DNA of 64,000 nucleotides, from the NCBI GenBank assembly GCA_020073665.1, contig JAIQEU010000004.1:1-64000 (forward strand), given 5' to 3'. Below, piece after piece: positions 2 through 40,184 of this stretch. The position numbers were made by a program, and so were the translations under genes. Position 1 is the first letter of the stretch. Every line of letters starts with the position of its first letter. The notes beneath the pieces were generated by a model. That model ran no database searches and was not told the DNA's origin. It worked only from the letters and a program-made list of their open reading frames with translations. The DNA comes from Terriglobia bacterium. Lineage in GTDB: Bacteria > Acidobacteriota > Terriglobia > Terriglobales > Acidobacteriaceae.

Positions 2-502
2 ACGCTGGCCAGGATTGCTGGCATCGTCGGTGAAGGCAAGCTGGGTTCGCTGGAGTTACTGGATACGCACCGTCCCGAGGGTTTTCGCATGCAGCACTTC
101 GCGCCGGATGCAACTCATGGGCTAAAGCCCTCTTTAAAAAATGCATTCAATGCAGGGCTGAAACCCTGCGCCACCCAGAAACAATCTGCCGAGGAGCACT
201 CCGCCACGGACGCCAGCAGTGCGGTAACCGCCATGCGCATTTTCCGTCCCCCGGTGCGGGCCACGGTGACGCTGCGGGACGGCCGGCCGGAGCACATGCT
301 TTGTCCCAAGCGCAAAGACATGCAAGGCGAGATCGTGTGGATGGCGGGGCCATGGCGGTCGTCGGGAGATTGGTGGGCACAGGAGGGATGGGCGCGCGAC
401 GAGTGGGACATTGCCGTGCAGCACGACGCGGGCATCACGCTGTATCGCCTGGTCCGCGATCTGATGAGCGGAGGATGGTTTGTGGAAGGAACCTATGACT
501 GA
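2..502 (+). CDS. imuB: Y-family DNA polymerase ImuB-like, C-terminal part (5' end outside window)
   Basis: The open frame enters from the left edge and ends at 502. ImuB is an inactive Y-family polymerase relative that brings the error-prone polymerase DnaE2 to the sliding clamp during SOS mutagenesis. The readable part has the features of the ImuB tail: a segment with LLDTHRPEGF, then RIFRPPVRA, AGPWRSSGDWW, RDEWD and a final WFVEGTYD. dnaE2 follows directly, which is the usual imuB-dnaE2 order. About 23 codons (about 112-181) encoding HGLKPSLKNAFNAGLKPCAT do not look like polymerase sequence; they come from a DNA repeat inserted in frame (separate entry). The N-terminal catalytic-fold part is not in the window, so its active-site residues cannot be judged. 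Confidence 0.85.
   Translation, partial: TLARIAGIVGEGKLGSLELLDTHRPEGFRMQHFAPDATHGLKPSLKNAFNAGLKPCATQKQSAEEHSATDASSAVTAMRIFRPPVRATVTLRDGRPEHMLCPKRKDMQGEIVWMAGPWRSSGDWWAQEGWARDEWDIAVQHDAGITLYRLVRDLMSGGWFVEGTYD
112..181. repeat. REP-like hairpin repeat inserted in frame in imuB
   Basis: Three small hairpins follow one another: GGGC-TAAA-GCCC at 119-130, TGCATT-C-AATGCA at 142-154, and GCAGGG-CTGAAA-CCCTGC at 152-169. This resembles the short palindromic elements scattered between acidobacterial genes, yet here it lies inside the coding frame and is translated. The insert keeps the frame. Its exact ends are inferred from where ImuB-like sequence stops and resumes. Confidence 0.6.
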
Positions 503-503
503 A

Positions 504-579
504 GGAATTGAATCATTAAGTCACTGAATCATTGAGTGATTCAGCCAATGATTCAATCACTCAATCATTCAATGACCCA
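504..579. repeat. AATCATT-type direct and inverted repeats ahead of dnaE2
   Basis: The gap between imuB and dnaE2 is made of near-copies of AATCATT, AATCACT and their complements (for example GAATCATTGAGTGATTCAG and CAATGATTCAATCACTC). It can be read in frame with dnaE2, which is why an upstream ATG at 532 looks like a start, but the peptide it gives has no polymerase character. Confidence 0.6.
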
Positions 580-3500
580 ATGTATATCGAGGTTCACTCC
601 CGTTCTGCTTTCAGTTTTCTGGAAGGCGCTTCCCTGCCCGAAGACCTGATCGCTACTGCCGCAAATATGGAAATGCCGGCGATGGCACTGCTGGATCGCG
701 ATGGCGTCTATGGCGCGCCGCGCTTCTACATGGCAGCGAAAAAAGCTGGGTTGAAGGCGCACACGGGGGCGGAGGTCGAATGTGAATTTTCAATTGCCAA
801 TTCCTTCCGTCTTCCCCTGCTGGTGTGCTCGCGTCTTGGCTATCAGAACCTGTGCCGCCTGATTACCCGGATGAAGCTGCGCTCCAAAAAGGGTGAAGGC
901 TCGGTCTGCCTGGAAGAACTGCAAGAACACGCCGCGGGCCTGATTTGCCTGACCGGTGACGAGAACGGGCCACTGGCCGCCACGCTTGCCCATGGAGGCA
1001 TGAGTGAAGCCCGCTGCCTGGTCGACTCGTTGGTGGGAATTTTCGGCCCATCCAATGTTTACGTCGAACTGCAGCGCCACTTTCATCGTGCCCAGGAAGC
1101 ACGCAACCGCGCTGCCGTGGAAATTGCGCGCGCGCTCCAGCTTCCCTTGCTGGCGACGAATGGGGTTGGCTATGCCACGCCGGGCGAGCGAGAACTCTGC
1201 GATGTATTTACTGCTATCCGCCACCATCGCACGCTGGCCACCGCCGGACGGCTGCTGGCGCGCAATTCGGAACGGTATGTGAAGTCCGCCGCGGAAATGC
1301 ACCAGCTCTTCGCTGACCTGCCCGAGGCCATTGCCAACACGGTTGAGCTGTCATCTCGCCTGGAGTTCACATTGGAAGATCTGGGCTACGAGTTCCCCCG
1401 GTATCCAGTGCCAGCGGGCGAGACCATGATGTCGTTCTTGCGGGAGCGCACTCGCGAGGGGTTTGAGCAGCGCTATGGCCGGGCCACGCCGGAGCTCAAA
1501 ACCCGCGCCCGCCGCCAGATTGAGCGGGAACTCACCTTGATCCAGAAACTCGATCTCGCCGGTTATTTTCTGATTGTCTGGGACCTGGTGCGTTTTTGCC
1601 GGGGGCAGAACATCCTGGTGCAGGGGCGTGGTTCGGCCGCCAACAGTGCGGTCTGCTACTCGCTGGGAATCACCGCCGTGGATGCGGTCGGCATGGAACT
1701 TCTATTCGAACGCTTTCTGTCGGAAGAACGCGGCGAGTGGCCCGACATCGATCTTGATCTTCCCAGCGGCGACCAGCGTGAGCGTGTCATCCAGTATTTA
1801 TACAAGCGCTACGGCGAACGCGGCGCCGCTATGACCGCTAACGTGATCACGTATCGCAGCCGCATGGCGTCGCGCGAAATGGGCAAGGCCCTGGGCTTTG
1901 ATCCGGAAACTCTGGATAAGGTCTCGGCCGCAGTTTCCAACTGGGAATATCGCGATGCCAACGACACGCTTGACCGCCGCTTCGGCGATGCCGGGCTGGA
2001 TCTGCGGCATCCGCGCCTGCGCAAATATTTTGAACTTTGCCAGGCGGTGCAGGATTTGCCACGCCATCTCGGCCAGCATTCTGGTGGGATGGTGATCTGC
2101 CAGGGACAGCTGGATTCGGTGGTGCCGCTCGAGCCGGCGTCCATGCCCGGCCGGGTAGTGGTGCAGTGGGACAAAGAAGACTGCGCCGATCTGGGCATCA
2201 TCAAAGTTGATCTGCTTGGTCTGGGCATGATGGCGGCGCTGGAAGAATCCATTCAACTGATTCGCGACAGTTATAAAGAAGAGGTTGATCTCGCGCATCT
2301 GCCGGCAGACGATCCCACGGTGTATGCCGCTTTGCAGAAGGCCGACACCATCGGCATGTTCCAGGTGGAAAGCCGGGCGCAGATGTCGTGCCTGCCGCGC
2401 CTGCGTCCGCAGCGGTTCTACGACATCGTGGTGCAGGTGGCAATCATTCGTCCCGGGCCGATCGTGGGGCAAATGGTGAATCCTTATTTACAGCGGCGCC
2501 AGGGCCGCGAATCGGTCGTCTACCCTCATGCTTCGCTGGAGCCGGTGCTGGCGCGCACTCTCGGTGTGCCGCTTTTCCAGGAGCAACTGCTACGGATGGC
2601 GATGGTGGTGGCCGGATTCAGCGGCGGCGAAGCAGAGGAATTGCGCCGGGCCATGGGCTTCAAACGCTCGCAAGCCCGCATGAAAGAGATCGAAGCTAAG
2701 CTGCGCGCGGGGATGACGCGCAATGGCATTACGCGCGAGGCGCAGGAGCAGATCGTGCTCTCCATCAGTTCGTTCGCGCTGTACGGGTTCCCAGAATCGC
2801 ACGCGGCCAGTTTTGCGTTGATTGCTTACGCCAGCGCATATCTGAAATGCCATTACCTGGCGGCTTTCACCGCGGCCCTGTTGAACAACCAGCCGATGGG
2901 ATTTTATCGTCCGGCCACGCTGGTAAAGGATGCGCAGCGGCACGGGCTGAAGATTTTGCCGATCGATGTGATGAAGTCGGATTGGCGGTGCACGCTGGAA
3001 ACAGTCGTCCGTCGTCCGTCGTCGGTCGTCAGGGAAGGCGTTGGGCGTTCGTCGTTGGTCGTTGGCCCAACCATGTCGTTCCTTGGCTCTGATTTCCCAG
3101 TTGTCCGTTCGGTCGACCAAGCCGCGGAGCAGCGAAAGAATGGAGACGCTGATATCTCCCGCGAACCCGTACTCCGCATGGGTCTGCGCTATGCGCGCGG
3201 GCTGCGCGAGGAAGCCGCCGGGGCAATCGTCCGCCAGCGCAACCTGGCTCCGTTTGCCTCGATTCGCGATCTGGTGCAGCGTGTGCCCGAGGTGCGAAAG
3301 GATGAATTGGTCACGCTGGCAGAAATTGGGGCTTTGAACTCGATTGGTGGGACCCCGGCTGATTTTCGCTCGGTACTCGGTACTGGGTCCTCGCAGCTTC
3401 ACCGCCGCGACGCCCTCTGGCAAGTGGAGCGGGCGGTGCGCCTTGCGGGGCCTTTGTTGGATGAACTGCCCGAACCGGATGCGAAATCGCCGCTGCGGCC

Positions 3501-3918
3501 GATGGATGCGGAGGAACGGCTGGTGGCCGATTTCCGTGGCACCGGCCTGACCGTGGGGCCGCATCCCATGGCCTATCATCGCGCGCGCATGGAAAAGATT
3601 GGCGTCCACAAGGCCAGCGATCTCCGTCATATTCCCAACGGAAAGTATTTGCGGATTGGAGGATGCGTGATTGCGCGGCAGCGTCCCGGGACCGCCAAAG
3701 GCTTTGTCTTTCTCAGCCTGGAAGATGAGACCGGGGTGGCCAACGCCATCATCCATCCCGAGCTGTTTCAGAAAAACCGCCTGCTGGTAGCTGCCGAGCA
3801 ATTCCTGATGGTGGAGGGAATTTTGCAGAACCAGGACAATGTCATTTCGGTGAAGGCCCAGAAAGTGCTGCCGCTGGCCATCACCCGCGCCGAAACCAGT
3901 TCACATGATTTCTACTAA
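580..3918 (+). CDS. dnaE2: Error-prone DNA polymerase DnaE2
   Basis: A C-family polymerase of 1112 residues that makes translesion, mutagenic DNA synthesis together with ImuB. The N-terminal PHP domain begins at once with EVHSRSAFSFLEGAS. The palm has the acidic motif PDIDLDLPSG (D389, D391, D393) and the C-terminus has an OB-fold region (RIGGCVIARQRPG). I chose ATG 580 because MYIEVHSRS is the usual DnaE2 start; the in-frame ATG at 532 lies inside a repeat. Two stretches look foreign: about 45 residues around 808-860, rich in V, R and S and encoded by a CGTCCGTCGTCC-type repeat, and SVLGTGSS near 930, encoded by a GGTACTCGGTACT repeat. Both keep the frame and lie outside the palm motifs. Confidence 0.95.
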   Translation: MYIEVHSRSAFSFLEGASLPEDLIATAANMEMPAMALLDRDGVYGAPRFYMAAKKAGLKAHTGAEVECEFSIANSFRLPLLVCSRLGYQNLCRLITRMKLRSKKGEGSVCLEELQEHAAGLICLTGDENGPLAATLAHGGMSEARCLVDSLVGIFGPSNVYVELQRHFHRAQEARNRAAVEIARALQLPLLATNGVGYATPGERELCDVFTAIRHHRTLATAGRLLARNSERYVKSAAEMHQLFADLPEAIANTVELSSRLEFTLEDLGYEFPRYPVPAGETMMSFLRERTREGFEQRYGRATPELKTRARRQIERELTLIQKLDLAGYFLIVWDLVRFCRGQNILVQGRGSAANSAVCYSLGITAVDAVGMELLFERFLSEERGEWPDIDLDLPSGDQRERVIQYLYKRYGERGAAMTANVITYRSRMASREMGKALGFDPETLDKVSAAVSNWEYRDANDTLDRRFGDAGLDLRHPRLRKYFELCQAVQDLPRHLGQHSGGMVICQGQLDSVVPLEPASMPGRVVVQWDKEDCADLGIIKVDLLGLGMMAALEESIQLIRDSYKEEVDLAHLPADDPTVYAALQKADTIGMFQVESRAQMSCLPRLRPQRFYDIVVQVAIIRPGPIVGQMVNPYLQRRQGRESVVYPHASLEPVLARTLGVPLFQEQLLRMAMVVAGFSGGEAEELRRAMGFKRSQARMKEIEAKLRAGMTRNGITREAQEQIVLSISSFALYGFPESHAASFALIAYASAYLKCHYLAAFTAALLNNQPMGFYRPATLVKDAQRHGLKILPIDVMKSDWRCTLETVVRRPSSVVREGVGRSSLVVGPTMSFLGSDFPVVRSVDQAAEQRKNGDADISREPVLRMGLRYARGLREEAAGAIVRQRNLAPFASIRDLVQRVPEVRKDELVTLAEIGALNSIGGTPADFRSVLGTGSSQLHRRDALWQVERAVRLAGPLLDELPEPDAKSPLRPMDAEERLVADFRGTGLTVGPHPMAYHRARMEKIGVHKASDLRHIPNGKYLRIGGCVIARQRPGTAKGFVFLSLEDETGVANAIIHPELFQKNRLLVAAEQFLMVEGILQNQDNVISVKAQKVLPLAITRAETSSHDFY
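3001..3066. repeat. CGTC-rich simple repeat inside dnaE2
   Basis: CGTCCGTCGTCCGTCGTCGG is followed by GGGCGTTCGTCGTTGGTCGT. A close relative of the first part stands between genes at 42717-42752, and TGGTCGTTGGC also occurs in the gap at 16907. The tract is translated as part of an extra linker in DnaE2. Confidence 0.6.
3368..3390. repeat. GGTACTCGGTACT repeat copy inside dnaE2
   Basis: CGGTACTCGGTACTGGGT at 3371-3388 matches the intergenic family found at 3920-3970, 12761-12856 and 13606-13752. Here it is translated as SVLGTG. Confidence 0.65.
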
Positions 3919-7687: not shown

Positions 7688-8964
7688 AGGTTTCCCTGAG
7701 AGTTGTGGCCATCTCTGTTCTGCTGTCCCTGAGCGCCTGGGCTTCCGCCGAGACCTTGGCGGGCACAGTCAAGAACGGCACCACCGGCAAGCCCGCGGCG
7801 GGGGACGAAGTGGTGTTGCTGAAACTGGGACAGGGCATGGAAGAAGCCGGCCGCACCAAGACCGACGCCAAGGGCAACTTCCGCTTCACGCTCGACGACC
7901 AGGGGCCGCACCTCGTTCGCGCCATTCACCAGGGTGCCACCTATCACAGCATGGCGCCTCCCGGATCCACCTCGGTGGAAGTCGAAGTCTACGACGTGGC
8001 CAAGAAGGTGGATGGGCTGAGCGTGACTGCCGACGTCATGCGCTTCCAGGCACAAGGCAACGAACTGCAGGGAATCCGGCTGTTTGCCGTGGACAACCAG
8101 TCGAAACCACCGCTGACTCAACTGAACGACCAGAACTTCGAGTTCTACCTGCCCGACGGCGCGACCGTGGAGACAGGCCTGGCGATGACCGCCGGCGGCA
8201 AGCCCATCACTTCGGCGCCGGTGCCGCAGAAGGAGAAGAATCGCTACGCCTTCCTCTTTCCGTTGCGCCCCGGGACGACCCAGTTCCAGGTGGTCTTCCA
8301 CATGACTTACAGCGGCGAACTGAGTGTCGATCCCAAGCCGCTCTACCCGGCCCAACACTTCGTAGTGGTGCTGCCCAAGACCATGCAGTTCAGCGCGACT
8401 GGCGGCGCGGGTTTCCAATCCATGCAGGACCCAAACCAGTCGGATGCAGCGGTGCAGGTGGCTTCCAACACCCAGGTGGGCCAACCCCTGGGATTCAAGA
8501 TCTCCGGGACTGGCGTCCTGGCGGAGAGTAGCGGCGACCAAGGTGGGGGTCAGCAGTCGGCCGGTGGCGGCGGGGCCCAGACCTCACGGCCGGGCGGAGG
8601 GCTTGGTCCGCCGATTGACGCCCCGGATCCGCTGGAAAAATATCAGTTGTACATTCTCGGCGGCTTCGTAGTGGCGCTGGTAATTGGCGGAGTCTATATT
8701 GTGCGCCGCTCGAAGTCTCTGCCGGCCCCTGACTACGCAGCCTCTGACGTTGACTTGCCTGCTGCTCCGGCACCGCCACCACCCTCCAAAACCGCGCCAG
8801 CCAGCCGTTCCGGCTTACTGCTTGAAGCCCTGAAAGAAGAGATGTTCGAACTGGAACTGGAGCACAAGCAGGGACGTATCTCACAGCAGGAGTATGAGAA
8901 AGCCAAGGCGGCGCTCGACCAGACGCTGTCGCGGGCGGTCAAGCGCGAGACGGCCAAGACCTAG
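7684..8964 (+). CDS. Secreted/membrane protein with carboxypeptidase regulatory-like domain
   Basis: A 426-residue protein starting at a TTG that overlaps the preceding stop; AAGGAGCGAG lies just upstream. A signal peptide ends near ASAETL. Residues about 25-95 have the beta-sandwich carboxypeptidase-regulatory (transthyretin-like) pattern, AGTVKNGTTGKPAAGDEVVLL. A Gly/Gln-rich linker follows (about 280-305), then one membrane segment (LYILGGFVVALVIGGVYIV), a Pro-rich cytoplasmic stretch, and a C-terminal helix with HKQGRISQQEYEKAKAAL, like a SHOCT-type oligomerisation tail. As the last gene of the ccm operon it may assist cytochrome assembly in the envelope; no reaction can be named. Confidence 0.8.
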   Translation: MKVSLRVVAISVLLSLSAWASAETLAGTVKNGTTGKPAAGDEVVLLKLGQGMEEAGRTKTDAKGNFRFTLDDQGPHLVRAIHQGATYHSMAPPGSTSVEVEVYDVAKKVDGLSVTADVMRFQAQGNELQGIRLFAVDNQSKPPLTQLNDQNFEFYLPDGATVETGLAMTAGGKPITSAPVPQKEKNRYAFLFPLRPGTTQFQVVFHMTYSGELSVDPKPLYPAQHFVVVLPKTMQFSATGGAGFQSMQDPNQSDAAVQVASNTQVGQPLGFKISGTGVLAESSGDQGGGQQSAGGGGAQTSRPGGGLGPPIDAPDPLEKYQLYILGGFVVALVIGGVYIVRRSKSLPAPDYAASDVDLPAAPAPPPPSKTAPASRSGLLLEALKEEMFELELEHKQGRISQQEYEKAKAALDQTLSRAVKRETAKT

Positions 8965-9054
8965 CCGCAACTGCCCTCGGGTTGCGAGCGGGATGCCGGC
9001 GCTGCCTCGAATCCGGCATTCGGCAGCGGCATCTATATCTATTGAGAATTCCTT

Positions 9055-9915
9055 ATGGCAAATACGTTCAAGACGGCGTTCCTACTGACGGCTTTGACTT
9101 TGCTGTTGATGGCGATTGGACGCGCGTTCGGCGGCCAGAACGGCATGGTCATCGCTCTGGGAATCGCCGTCGTCACCAACTTCATCGCCTATTTCTTTTC
9201 TGACAAGATTGCACTTGCGACCTATCGCGCCCAGCCCGTAACCCGCGAGCAGTTGCCGCGAGCCTACGGAGCGGTGGAACGGATTACCCAGAAGATCGGC
9301 CTGCCCATGCCGAAGATGTACGTCATTCCAAGCGATTCGCCCAACGCCTTCGCAACCGGACGCAATCCGAAACATGCTTCGGTGGCGGTAACCCAGGGCA
9401 TCCTGAATTTGTTGACCGACGAGGAATTGGAAGGCGTACTGGCGCACGAACTAGGCCACGTTGGCAATCGTGACATCCTGATCAGTTCGATCGCGGCAAC
9501 CATCGCAGGAGCCATCACCATGCTGGCCAGCATGGCGCGCTGGGGCATGATTTTCGGCGGCTTCGGGGGTAGTCGTGACGACCGCCGCGGCGGCGGCATC
9601 GGCGCCCTGCTCATGCTATTCCTGGCACCCTTGGCGGCCAGCTTGATACAGCTTGCGGTCTCGCGATCGCGCGAATACCAGGCGGACGCTACCGGCGCGC
9701 ACTACACCGGCAATCCTTATGCCCTGGCCAGCGCCTTGGCCAAACTGGACGCGTACTCGCGGCGCGTCCCCATGATGGCCACGCCTTCAACCGCGCACTT
9801 GTTCATCATTCAGCCGTTCCTGGGAATGAACTTCGGCAGCCTGTTCTCGACCCATCCGCCCATCGCCAAGCGCATTGAGCGGTTGACGGGACGGCCGGCA
9901 GAGTTTACGCAATAA
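9055..9915 (+). CDS. htpX: M48 family zinc metalloprotease HtpX
   Basis: A 286-residue inner-membrane protease that degrades damaged membrane proteins. Two N-terminal membrane segments come first, then the zinc motif HELGH (H131, E132, H135), two more hydrophobic stretches and the downstream Glu in [10 protein letters not shown] that completes the metal site. A glycine-rich stretch ([16 protein letters not shown]) lies between. Length fits bacterial HtpX. The gene follows the ccm operon after 90 bases and is probably a separate unit. Confidence 0.93.
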
Positions 9916-9985
9916 GCTGTCAGCAAAACCAATTGCAAGGCCGCTGAAATCTCGCGTTCCAACTGATAGCTGGCAGCTTCAGATA
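9916..9985. repeat. CAGC-type low-complexity intergenic repeat
   Basis: AAGCTGTCAGC and, inverted, GATAGCTGGCAGCTTCAG flank a short spacer. Similar words occur at 16907, 21695, 26670, 41010-41155 and 52650 in this window, always between genes. Confidence 0.45.
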
Positions 9986-10053
9986 TGACTTTGGTACCCG
10001 GCACGAGCCTTGGCTCTCCGGACTGCACTCCCGGGCATAGTAGAATCGAAAAG

Positions 10054-11013
10054 ATGTCTCCCGAAACTGCCACTGCCGCCTCCCATCGCGCAGCAGAACT
10101 AGAAAACGCTTTGCGGACGGTGATTCGCGGCAAGGACGATATTATCCGCCTGGCGCTGGTTTCGATGCTGGCGCGCGGGCATTTGCTGATTGAAGGCGTC
10201 CCGGGGGTGGGCAAGACTACGCTCGGCCAGGCGCTGGCTCGCGCCCTGGACTGCAGTTTCCAGCGGGTACAGTTCACCAGCGACATGCTGCCCTCGGATG
10301 TGCTGGGGATTTCCATCTATTCAGTTGCCGAGCAGGAATTTGAGTTTAAGCGCGGGCCGGTGTTCTGCAACGTCCTGCTGGCCGACGAGATTAATCGCAC
10401 CACTCCCAAGACCCAATCCGCCTTGCTCGAGGCCATGAATGAAGGCCAAGTCACGGTGGATGCGCACTCCTACCCGTTACCGCAACCGTTTCTGGTGATT
10501 GCCACGCAGAATCCGGTCGAGCATCACGGGACCTACCCGCTGCCGGAATCGCAACTCGATCGCTTCCTGATGCGGGTGAGAATGGGTTACCCCGACGGCG
10601 ATGCGGAGCGGGAGATTTTGCGCTCCCAGGCGGGTACGGCACAGCTCGAGCAACTGCAGCCTGTACTCACCGCGGCCGAGGTACTGGAGATGCAGCAGGC
10701 GGTCACGCACGTGCGAGTGGACGATTCGCTGGTAAGTTACACGCTGGCCATCGTTCGCAAGACGCGCGAATCGGAGCATTTCACGCTCGGGGTATCGCCG
10801 CGTGGCTCGCAGATGCTCTATCGTGCAGCCCAGGCGATGGCCTTCCTCGATCACCGCAATTTCTGCGTCCCGGAAGACTTCAAGCCGCTGGTCACGCCGG
10901 TGTTCGCGCATCGCGTGGTGGTCAATGCGCTGTACTCTTCTACGCTGAAGAAATCCGAGCAGGCCGAGCAGGTGATGCAAGAGATCCTGGACACGGTGCC
11001 GGTGCCGGTATAA
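10054..11013 (+). CDS. MoxR family AAA+ ATPase
   Basis: A 319-residue ATPase with Walker A GVPGVGKTT, Walker B LLADEINR, and the MoxR stretch TQNPVEHHGTYPLPE followed by QLDRF. MoxR proteins act as chaperones that help assemble or insert metal cofactors into partner proteins, often with VWA-domain proteins. No VWA or DUF58 gene follows here, so the partner is not evident. I place the start at ATG 10054 (MSPETATAA); an earlier in-frame ATG at 9985 lies in the repeat-bearing gap. Confidence 0.9.
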   Translation: MSPETATAASHRAAELENALRTVIRGKDDIIRLALVSMLARGHLLIEGVPGVGKTTLGQALARALDCSFQRVQFTSDMLPSDVLGISIYSVAEQEFEFKRGPVFCNVLLADEINRTTPKTQSALLEAMNEGQVTVDAHSYPLPQPFLVIATQNPVEHHGTYPLPESQLDRFLMRVRMGYPDGDAEREILRSQAGTAQLEQLQPVLTAAEVLEMQQAVTHVRVDDSLVSYTLAIVRKTRESEHFTLGVSPRGSQMLYRAAQAMAFLDHRNFCVPEDFKPLVTPVFAHRVVVNALYSSTLKKSEQAEQVMQEILDTVPVPV

Positions 11014-37571: not shown

Positions 37572-38102
37572 CTAACCGACGCCGTGCCCATCTAGGAATC
37601 GGAGCACGAATTCGACCAGGGTTTCTCCTTCGAGTTGCGGAGGCATCCTCTGCGGTGGCGCTTTTCTAACCACCGGCGACGCGGGTTCGCTATGTTGCCG
37701 TAAGGCCGCCCATTCGGGGGATCGAAAACGCACAACTTTGTCTCCTTCCCGTGCGCGTACTGCGGCTTCCGCATAAGTGGCAAAAAGCATCCACGTTGTC
37801 CAAGTCCAATGATCGCCGACCCTAATTCGTGTCATCACGGCATGGCCGGATCCAATGATCGCCGACGCCACGGGTGTGGTATCTAGGGCTGGGTGATTGG
37901 TGCATCGACCCGGAATAGCGCACTGAAACTCAGACTCCTCCTCTACCGTCAAGGAACGCATGGCACAGCCTTCGACGCCGACAACATAGCCACCAGCGCA
38001 TGGAATGCAGGACGCAGCCTCAGTTACGGTTTTGTGCTCATGCCTGCAACTGATGAGACACCCACATTCGGTCCAAGCTGCGGAGTAGTAAATTGAACTC
38101 AT
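37572..38102 (-). CDS. Hypothetical cysteine-rich protein
   Basis: A 176-residue protein of unknown function. The N-terminal 50 residues hold eight Cys and several His (CGCLISCRHEHKTVTEAAS, then CIPCAGGYVVG), which could bind a metal. The rest is soluble, with WTTWMLFATYAEAAVRAREG and a C-terminal Pro-rich stretch. Composition is more AT-rich than the flanks, and it stands beside the sigma-like/receiver gene in the same AT-richer region. No family was recognised. Confidence 0.55.
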   Translation of the reverse strand: MSSIYYSAAWTECGCLISCRHEHKTVTEAASCIPCAGGYVVGVEGCAMRSLTVEEESEFQCAIPGRCTNHPALDTTPVASAIIGSGHAVMTRIRVGDHWTWTTWMLFATYAEAAVRAREGDKVVRFRSPEWAALRQHSEPASPVVRKAPPQRMPPQLEGETLVEFVLRFLDGHGVG

Positions 38103-38454: not shown

Positions 38455-38539
38455 CCGGAAGTTACCACCGTAACATCAGGTCACCATGTTTCAGTTCTGC
38501 ACATGCCCAAAAGTGGCATGTTCAGAAAGTAACTTCCGG
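38455..38539. repeat. Nested inverted repeats ahead of the sigma-like gene
   Basis: An outer pair CCGGAAGTTA (38455-38464) / TAACTTCCGG (38530-38539) encloses an inner pair TCTGCACATGCC / GGCATGTTCAGA (38497-38508 and 38515-38526, one mismatch) with a seven-base loop. The structure ends 37 bases before the start codon and could fold in RNA or bind a protein in DNA. Confidence 0.55.
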
Positions 38540-38576: not shown

Positions 38577-40184
38577 ATGAATGATTTTTACTCCCTCCTA
38601 GATGCGAAACAAGCGCTAGAGAACGAAATGACCGCTCGCCAGAAGCGGCTGATAGACATTGTGACCGAGCAATGCAGGGACGAGAGTCTTTCAGCGAAGA
38701 AAGCGACGAAAGACAAGCTAGAAAATGAAATAGAGGATCTCAGGAATGCGTTAGAGAAGCTGGAAGCGCCAGGCAATTGTGCCTCTTGCGGGGCGCAGGT
38801 AGACGTTCATCAGAGGTTCCGTATCCGCGTGTCCAAGAGCGAGCACTCGCCGAACACGAATTGGATGATAGCGAGGGATCTCGTCAGGATGGAATGTGCC
38901 GACTGCGTCCGGCGCGCATGCGATTCGCAACCGCGGCCAGAGAGAATTGCGACAAGAGACGAGATCGAGGAAGCATTCGAGATGCTGACGGCGGCGGAAC
39001 GGCGAAAACTCCAGAACTTTGCTGACTGGCGAGTGCGAGGTCTCGGCCGGGCCAGTCGTGGCAGCACCGGGGAAGATCTGGTCCAGGAAGCGCTGCTTTC
39101 GACGCTTGTTGGTGCAGAGGATGCTGGCAAGGGCAAGCACTGGAGCAAAAGCAGAGTTGATTTCTCAGGCCATCTCAAGAAAGCCATCCAACGTATTTCC
39201 TGGGGCTGGAAAGAGAAGTTTAACGAGCGGGAACCATGGTTGGAATCCGAAGTCATTACCTCGAATGCGGAGGGAGACGAACTTTCTCCGCTCGACAGTG
39301 TTGCGTCAGATAGCCCGGCGGCAGACCAAAATCTAAGCGTGCATGAGGAAATCGAACGCAGATTTAGAATATTCGCTAACGACAACGAGGCCAGTGCCGT
39401 GCTTCAGGGACGGCTGGGAGGCATGACGACAGCCCGTGAAATTATGCAGGAGTTTAGATTGACCAAGCGACAGTACCAGGCTGCAGGGAATCGAATTCGC
39501 AGCCCGAGATCCGTACTGGTCATAGAGGATTACGATCAGGTGCTGACCCTTTTCGTGAAATGGCTGAAGCAAATGGGCTACGCGGTGCACACTGCTTGCA
39601 ACGGTGTCGAAGGACTCCGCTTGTATCGGGAGTGTGGCCCGTTTGATGTCGTCATGATCAGCCATTCCCTAAACCAAAACGGGGTTCAGCTTGGGATGAA
39701 CATCTTCAAGAGCAACCGATCGCAGAGGATGGTGATCACAACGACCTATAGCGACGAGGAAGACGTGCTGCGCTCGAGCGAGTTAATGCACGTTCCAATT
39801 CTGCTCAAGCCGTTCCGTCGGCTTGAGTTGCGCACAGTTCTAGAGAAAATTCACAACCAACCAGCGAAGCTCGGCCCCGCCACACAACAGTGTTCTATGC
39901 AAGACCGCAGTACTTCTGCGCTTGCGGCCGCGCTGCCAGTTTCCGCAGTTGCCGAATCTGCAGTCTCGGGTCTCGCTGCGGAAGCTACGAAACAGGCTGT
40001 CGCTGACGGCGAAGCGGTCAGGAGAAGCGAGAGAGTGCGTCGCCATCGACCAAGGCATCGGCGGACGAGTACCGGTTCGAAGCGACGAAGCAGAAATGGC
40101 ATTCCAAACAGCCCGCAGAGGGGAGACCGGAAAAAAGCAGCAGCTGACATTCTTGCTGCCCAAGCATCCGATGCTGCTGTGTAA
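38577..40184 (+). CDS. Zinc-ribbon / sigma-factor-like / pseudo-receiver fusion protein
   Basis: A 535-residue protein. Residues 1-60 are a coiled coil (KATKDKLENEIEDLRNALEK). C68-x2-C71 and C107-x2-C110 (with C114) look like a zinc ribbon. Residues about 135-310 resemble an ECF-type sigma factor: ERRKLQNFADWRVRGLGR, GEDLVQEALLSTL (region 2-like), SGHLKKAIQRISWGWKEKF, and GMTTAREIMQEFRLTKRQYQ (region 4-like helix-turn-helix). Residues 313-425 are CheY-like: SVLVIEDYDQ (E317, D318), PILLKPF (K411), but the phospho-acceptor position is Ser362, 44 residues after D318 as in CheY. The tail is basic and low-complexity. ATG 38577 follows GGAG. Probably a regulator that does not use aspartate phosphorylation; DNA or polymerase binding is inferred. 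Confidence 0.75.
   Translation: MNDFYSLLDAKQALENEMTARQKRLIDIVTEQCRDESLSAKKATKDKLENEIEDLRNALEKLEAPGNCASCGAQVDVHQRFRIRVSKSEHSPNTNWMIARDLVRMECADCVRRACDSQPRPERIATRDEIEEAFEMLTAAERRKLQNFADWRVRGLGRASRGSTGEDLVQEALLSTLVGAEDAGKGKHWSKSRVDFSGHLKKAIQRISWGWKEKFNEREPWLESEVITSNAEGDELSPLDSVASDSPAADQNLSVHEEIERRFRIFANDNEASAVLQGRLGGMTTAREIMQEFRLTKRQYQAAGNRIRSPRSVLVIEDYDQVLTLFVKWLKQMGYAVHTACNGVEGLRLYRECGPFDVVMISHSLNQNGVQLGMNIFKSNRSQRMVITTTYSDEEDVLRSSELMHVPILLKPFRRLELRTVLEKIHNQPAKLGPATQQCSMQDRSTSALAAALPVSAVAESAVSGLAAEATKQAVADGEAVRRSERVRRHRPRHRRTSTGSKRRSRNGIPNSPQRGDRKKAAADILAAQASDAAV

Follow-up and report, generated by a model that had tools for sequence, protein, structure and literature searches.

A sigma-like protein joined to a receiver without its phospho-acceptor aspartate in an Acidobacteriaceae genome, and stand-alone relatives beside CapP-type peptidase genes

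We analyzed a 64,000-nucleotide stretch of a Terriglobia bacterium contig (JAIQEU010000004.1, positions 1 to 64,000; here referred to as the window), in which a single gene joins a cysteine site, a sigma-factor-like region, and a receiver domain without its phospho-acceptor Asp. This combination had been proposed in a first-pass annotation made from the letters alone, and we confirm it in the window and in two orthologues. The features of the locus are as follows.

38577-40184, forward strand: fused gene of 535 aa, made up of a coil, a zinc-type Cys site, a sigma-like part, an aspartate-less receiver, and a basic tail
38577-38768, forward strand: two-helix coiled-coil hairpin predicted by AlphaFold, residues 1-64 (helices 4-32 and 38-63)
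38769-38930, forward strand: putative zinc-type Cys site C68/C71...C107/C110, residues 65-118, from Cys conservation
38952-39281, forward strand: sigma region 2-like segment, residues 126-235, from profile comparisons and an AlphaFold model
39351-39506, forward strand: sigma region 4-like helix-turn-helix, residues 259-310, from the same two sources
39507-39848, forward strand: receiver without acceptor Asp (PF00072), residues 311-424
39660-39662, forward strand: codon of Ser362, at the phospho-acceptor position
39849-40181, forward strand: unconserved basic tail of ~110 aa, residues 425-535, with ~20% identity to the orthologues' shorter basic tails
37572-38102, reverse strand: Cys/His-rich protein of the SIYYSAAW family, 176 aa
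38455-38539, no strand assigned: nested inverted repeat upstream of the gene, holding GTTAC-N4-GTAAC (38461-38474)

The frame at 38577-40184 is open throughout, with an ATG start and no internal stops, and a chance or misread frame is excluded by this together with the orthologue comparison (dN/dS) given below. An alternative GTG start 135 nt 5' of ATG 38577 would yield a product of 580 aa; we favor the ATG because both orthologues begin at the equivalent site with a similar GGAGAA-type sequence upstream. The receiver is the sole Pfam family above cut-off in the 535-aa protein. All of the residues singled out at first pass (C68, C71, C107, C110, E317, D318, S362, and K411) lie at those numbers, and the proposed order of coil, Cys site, sigma-like region, and receiver stands, to be amended by the ~110-aa tail that follows the receiver.

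Of 398 genomes from the same family, 22 gave matches in a profile search (weakest E value, 8e-4). Beyond the window, the full architecture occurs only in genomes G524 and G569, both from one genus that differs from the window's, and a receiver search at an E value of 1e-12 in 250 family genomes returned nothing other than the window and these two:

L092 (G524), 8769-10187: full-length orthologue
L093 (G569), 8385-9797: full-length orthologue

Identity to the window is 59 to 67% in the coil, 38 to 55% in the Cys region, 44 to 78% in region 2, 58 to 73% in region 4, and 66 to 67% in the receiver. When the window is compared with G524, region 2 stands out as the best-conserved domain, at 78% compared to 55 to 73% in the other domains before the tail. 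Nei-Gojobori dN/dS for pairs that include the window is 0.13 to 0.33 across the coil-plus-Cys, sigma, and receiver parts (0.13 to 0.25 in the receiver), at dS values of 0.73 to 1.7 that are partly saturated. Judged by these ratios, the 535-aa open reading frame (ORF) looks to be under purifying selection. Across the phylum, a protein query matched 7 of 396 genomes, counting the window's own genome and one chance match, and among plasmids it matched 2 of 72,556. Residues 1-312 had no match at an E value of 0.1 in 50,697 phage records; a phage origin was dismissed on this search and on a pattern scan of viral contigs, both without relatives.

The receiver matches PF00072 over residues 313-422 (E value of 1.5e-10, above cut-off). 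As the first-pass annotation had read it, the distance from D318 to the acceptor position is 44 residues, Ser362 stands there instead of Asp, and E317/D318 and K411 are retained. T389, located 22 residues before K411, is presumably the conserved Thr, an assignment made by CheY spacing, and completes a pocket in which every other residue is present. Around the pocket, Ile408 occupies position K-3, the acceptor+4 position holds Asn instead of the usual Pro, and Gly lies at +7, not +8. All three full-length orthologues, counting the window, have Ser at the acceptor position and none has Asp; their acidic pairs are ED, EE, and EE, and the Lys is retained. Aspartate-less or pseudo-receivers (ALR, PsR; for example, RitR and ChxR) likewise match PF00072 with the acceptor Asp replaced, and the window protein differs from them in its sigma-like output, in keeping K411, T389, and the acidic pair, and in the nonaromatic Ile408 at K-3. 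According to parts of two surveys, Ser accounts for 15% of Asp replacements, third behind Glu and Asn (PMC4395418), and position K-3 is aromatic in 86% of receivers (PMC12632262). With the Asp missing, we predict that the protein responds to something other than phosphorylation of an Asp; the receiver lacks what a histidine kinase would need to drive it in the usual manner. For such receivers, sections of the latter survey name ligand binding, redox-controlled dimerization, other covalent marks, and protein partners as alternatives (PMC12632262). A single-domain receiver that does carry the Asp is encoded near both full orthologues (L092, 11439-11894; L093, 10156-10614), and its best match in the window genome, at 52% identity, is on another contig.

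At the N terminus, AlphaFold gave the coil block means of pLDDT of 64 to 79 over residues 11-60, within an overall poor full-length model. C68, C71, and C107 are kept in all three orthologues and C110 in two; in G569, Trp replaces C110 and another Cys follows. The Cys positions of the proposed C68/C71-C107/C110 zinc site were read correctly, C110 is not strictly conserved, and residues 65-118 likely form a zinc site. An N-terminal profile compared with PDB sequences retrieved Rad50 (two chains, E values of 0.17 and 0.5), M protein (5.1), and nothing else. DksA/TraR is absent from the Pfam matches of the 535-aa protein up to an E value of 10; DksA appears at rank 4 (E value of 1.1) in a Foldseek search with the full-length model, and VIA matches for the N terminus are many generic coiled coils. 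An identity of the N terminus as DksA/TraR was set aside for want of support from sequence, the structural matches being generic coiled coils.

The sigma-like part of the window protein stays below the Pfam cut-off. Residues 126-310 alone match PF04542 (Sigma70_r2) at an E value of 0.13 and 12.5 bits, compared to a cut-off of 24, and have no Pfam match to Sigma70_r4 or Sigma70_r4_2, so the gathering score is reached for none of these models. Sigma70_r2 is matched by 12 of 27 family members at E values up to 1; the next family is matched by 3. When the 27-member profile was compared with 177,635 PDB sequences, the top matches were sigma-H (E value of 0.0029) and then the extracytoplasmic function (ECF) factor SigH (0.0076), and sigma chains made up 4 of the 11 matches up to an E value of 10. 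Alignment of the family with eight ECF proteins by hhalign gave a probability of 97.4 and an E value of 1.3e-11 over 136 columns spanning both regions, with a biased sample in that the eight came from the family's own profile matches and had been selected for an ECF-like motif. In 399 genomes of the class, an earlier profile built from 10 members gave weak matches that also include ECF factors. An ORF with the ECF-like motif was found in 10 of 14 loci, 8 of these 10 were scanned by Pfam (all except L081 and L084), and all 8 had both sigma regions above cut-off, a proportion that is biased as a measure of ECF identity because the ORFs were preselected by that motif.

Structure prediction, carried out by part, pointed the same way for the sigma-like segment, whereas the full-length model (pLDDT of 47) was too poor to resolve the receiver fold and had no Foldseek match at an E value of 0.001 or below. 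The AlphaFold model of residues 119-312, built from three sequences (pLDDT of 66, pTM of 0.43), consists of four helices, a low-confidence linker, and four more helices. In Foldseek, 16 of the 22 rows up to an E value of 10 are sigma chains by title (9n9q_C unsure), all at E values of at least 1. In VIA, the top 11 matches are sigma factors, judged by title, with Z scores of 7.5 to 6.0, values that by the tool's own warning are often reached by helical models; among the 50 matches listed, 45 are bacterial sigma factors or chains of bacterial RNA polymerase complexes, 4 are of the TFIIB type, and 1 belongs to an RNA-guided transcription complex. Common ancestry with ECF/sigma-70 factors over region 2, the linker, and region 4 is detectable at the level of profiles, and residues ~126-310 are supported as a divergent sigma-like module with regions 2 and 4, in a model of moderate confidence. 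The first-pass reading of this segment as sigma-like is thereby borne out by both profiles and predicted structure; in the profile searches that it had suggested, the receiver is clear by Pfam, and the ECF link, below cut-off for the segment alone, is found with the family profile and hhalign. Of the two outcomes that would have overturned the first-pass reading, a structure prediction unlike sigma factors and Asp at position 362 in homologues, neither was obtained, the second being judged on the three full-length orthologues.

A sigma-like part with a receiver behind it in one protein is also the layout of PhyR, a protein of the alphaproteobacterial general stress response that does not itself serve as a sigma factor (parts of PMC8103513). 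By analogy, the sigma-like part would bind an anti-sigma factor and free a true sigma factor, with the receiver as gate; we consider this the foremost alternative to our preferred reading, and less likely than it. Several points are in its favor. The order of the two parts is that of PhyR, whose promoter- and core-binding parts are degenerate (parts of PMC8103513 and PMC8999054), and here the window's sigma part falls below the Pfam cut-off. The region 2 motif of the G569 copy is degraded, and its dN/dS is 0.33 to 0.41 in the sigma part and lower, 0.13 to 0.23, in the receiver, which would fit better with a mimic than with a working sigma factor. However, PhyR acts through phosphorylation of its receiver on Asp, its sigma part mimicking EcfG (parts of PMC8103513), and this is impossible at Ser362. 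The PhyR models PF22233 and PF22029 are absent from the matches up to an E value of 10 (HMMER filters drop most above 0.1), and the window protein has an extra N-terminal coil/Cys domain and belongs to another sigma-like family. In its own genome, the protein query found no second member of the sigma family at an E value of 0.001, and the A1 profile found a single further site (E value of 2.1e-4, 83 positions).

Control domains behind region 4 are also known from ECF factors with C-terminal extensions, such as the TPR of ECF42 and the WD40-like domain of ECF57, and ECF56 (SnoaL_2) likewise carries its extension behind a core of region 2, linker, and region 4; for several ECF groups, domains of this kind are proposed to gate the core (parts of PMC8999054). 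The window protein differs in that its extension is a receiver and its sigma part is below the Pfam cut-off; that review of noncanonical ECFs nowhere uses the word "receiver" (PMC8999054). Besides PhyR, we met no sigma-receiver protein in the literature covered, which consisted mostly of titles and the openings of abstracts.

Two further genomes encode the fusion in the reverse order.

L033 (G009), 21-1016, reverse strand: receiver before sigma-like part
L094 (G653), 2652-3680, reverse strand: receiver before sigma-like part

Both receivers match PF00072 below cut-off and lack the Lys; that of G009 has the Asp, its acidic pair being incomplete in the alignment, and that of G653 has Asn at the acceptor position with the acidic pair kept. 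Each carries an insert behind the acceptor, which in G009 resembles a short internal duplication. At the N terminus of the G583 protein (L095), no receiver was found in three frames or by Pfam.

Immediately upstream of the window gene lies the SIYYSAAW-family gene. Among 250 family genomes, four (G000, G524, G009, and G569) carry its long form, in each case adjoining the sigma-receiver gene, so that the Cys-rich neighbor accompanies four of the five fusions; it was not found in G653 and G583 at an E value of 0.001. Fifteen further family genomes have shorter or weaker matches alone, and the first ~65 residues of the protein are matched without the remainder in other family genomes. The relative orientation of the two genes varies among the four genomes, so they do not form a single operon. 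The AT-richer setting beside a Cys-rich protein, described at first pass, is reflected in the GC3 values of the gene (0.596) and its neighbor (0.551), compared to a mean of 0.742 (standard deviation, 0.063) for 44 ORFs of the window; the neighbor ranks lowest and the gene fourth lowest, with two others as low (0.566 and 0.592). Low GC3 in both fits with joint horizontal transfer. Together with the sparse distribution and the differing surroundings of the orthologues, it could also be taken as the mark of a decaying or nonfunctional remnant of a mobile gene. We regard this as highly improbable, given frames that are open in three of three genomes, the low dN/dS of window pairs (with its partly saturated dS), and the conserved Ser.

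The palindrome GTTAC-N4-GTAAC is found upstream of the gene in all three orthologues, within an alignable stretch, and the outer stem of the repeat is not conserved. In the window, the nested repeat folds with a z score of -5.2 as DNA and -3.6 as RNA. The palindrome would suit a DNA-binding or scaffold regulator, in which the sigma-derived part no longer binds RNA polymerase, the receiver offers a surface for interactions, and the protein serves as a scaffold or as an ordinary repressor or activator; aspartate-less receivers are also overrepresented alongside rarer outputs, and some need no phosphorylation to be active (parts of PMC4395418 and PMC12632262). Against this, one such palindrome is expected by chance in the 64 kb of the window, 45 of 100 shuffles holding one with at most 1 mismatch, and region 2, needless for a pure region 4 DNA binder, is the best-conserved domain between the window and G524. 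We judge such a regulator improbable. A palindrome regulon was rejected for lack of enrichment, the genome holding 14 sites at up to 2 mismatches and the reversed control giving 21. A perfect copy of the 16-base form is present once in the genome and the 15-base form twice, and no second genomic copy of the 182-base upstream stretch was found.

The relatives of the sigma-like part are mostly stand-alone proteins of ~200 aa, encoded by the first gene of an operon that continues with a ~140-aa partner and a CapP-type (ImmA/IrrE-type) peptidase. We examined 29 loci, a subset of the matches found: the window, the four other receiver fusions, L095, and 23 stand-alone loci. Dropped before counting were L026/L032 (G342), judged from its sequence to match by chance within a sigma-54-type activator, and L110 (G665), whose frame is interrupted; the counts also leave out matches including those in G030, G470, G680, G801, G832, G940, G959, G961, and G968. 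In 21 of the 23 loci (all but L096 and L018), a CapP-type peptidase gene begins 346 to 475 nt past the stand-alone gene, as it does in 15 of 17 independent ones, six loci having supplied queries; PADLOC names the L027 peptidase capP (E value of 2e-59). The ~140-aa partner is matched in 18 of 23, a count that includes five query loci (L027, L028, L030, L031, and L034) and excludes a self-match of L029. On the opposite strand upstream, genes of ThiF, JAB, or DUF6791 type or, in L028, a CD-NTase with an E2 are found in 17 of the 20 loci that have at least 1.6 kb of upstream sequence (L096, L097, and L103 being too short). The exceptions are L100, L027, and L019; nine of the loci supplied queries, leaving 8 of 11 independent, and L107 is included by a weak JAB match only. 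Pfam confirms ThiF in nine loci, and PADLOC confirms the CD-NTase. Judging by gene content, these loci are candidate sigma-type controllers of ubiquitin-like immune operons, and the ThiF/JAB genes may be Bub-like.

Neither a CapP gene nor a ThiF/JAB-type gene was found beside the fusions in the sequence available. A CapP gene is absent from all four testable fusions (the window, within 6 kb; L092; L093; and L094) and from L095, while L033 ends 20 nt on. No ThiF/JAB-type match was found within 6 kb on each side in the window, L092, and L093, within 2 to 3 kb in L094, or within 3 kb upstream in L033. The ~140-aa partner gene is likewise missing beside the window fusion, which also counts against a PhyR-like mimic. 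A fused copy of this partner as the origin of the N-terminal domain was rejected, as a search of five sequences with every filter disabled gave no convincing match (E values of 0.011, 0.013, and 0.1).

In a phylogenetic tree rooted at the midpoint only, all five fusions fall in a starred group of eight (96/96) with L096, L027, and L097. The fusions do not form one side of a branch and require two changes in the best tree; a single change suffices in 8% of bootstrap trees. CapP is present at L027 and L097 and absent from the 3.6 kb behind the sigma-like gene of L096, where a different gene overlaps the end of the sigma-like gene.

L096 (G668), 2711-3574, reverse strand: partner-like N terminus fused to a complete receiver-GerE response regulator

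Its first part is partner-like by tblastn (E value of 5e-4), and the remainder matches PF00072 (1.4e-26) and GerE (4e-17). Within the starred group, the link between receiver and sigma-like module therefore takes three forms while CapP is missing: sigma-receiver, receiver-sigma, and the partner-regulator fusion of G668. A short gene behind the receiver-sigma fusion of G653 is weakly partner-like in the five-sequence search (E value of 0.0011) and has no tblastn match.

Our preferred reading, held tentatively and with a little less than even confidence, is that the window protein is a self-contained sigma transcription switch in a single protein, in which the receiver and the coil/zinc domain have replaced the protease arm. 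The middle part would be a divergent sigma-70-type (ECF-like) module from a small family that usually works with the partner and CapP; in the window lineage, partner and protease are missing, a receiver is fused behind region 4, and the coil/zinc domain stands before region 2, and the CapP arrangement would be the older one. As there is no Asp to take a phosphoryl group, the receiver most likely presents a fixed surface or one controlled by a ligand, partner, redox state, or Ser kinase, and this surface would set whether regions 2 and 4 can bind core RNA polymerase and promoter DNA. Strand 1 of the receiver begins almost directly after region 4, and with a linker of nearly nil a contact between the two is likely, through which the receiver may control region 4. 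Binding of RNA polymerase by the fused protein is predicted from its sequence, and zinc binding at the Cys site and the nature of the signal are what we infer. Counted against a sigma switch are the subthreshold Pfam score of the sigma part, the Foldseek E values, all of at least 1, the VIA Z scores, the degraded region 2 motif of G569 with the higher dN/dS of its sigma part, and the placing of the five fusions in the midpoint-rooted tree. A broader version, which we think rather unlikely, holds that a CapP-released sigma switch of ubiquitin-like immune operons was rewired to receivers in three separate ways within a single acidobacterial group, the window protein being a one-piece, phosphorylation-free sigma factor gated by an aspartate-less receiver and a zinc domain.

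Pseudo-receivers are common, and the switching of the bacterial ones is largely unknown (parts of PMC12632262); one joined to a sigma-like output would allow a direct readout in vitro. The stand-alone relatives suggest that ThiF/JAB-type operons have a sigma-like/CapP controller. They share a CapP-type protease beside ThiF/JAB-type genes with the immune-operon controllers CapH+CapP and CapK+CapS (parts of PMC13373217), and differ from these in that the first gene is sigma-like; the fusion differs further in having no CapP or ThiF/JAB gene within 6 kb. We met no description of a sigma-like/CapP controller of such operons in the literature covered, including parts of PMC13373217, where it may stand under another name. 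Example operons are L034 (2419-6646), L101 (5493-9933), and L027 (8300-10100), the last not divergent from ThiF-type genes; elsewhere, the genes divergent from the sigma-like/~140-aa/CapP operons encode ThiF, JAB, DUF6791/DUF6527, or CD-NTase.
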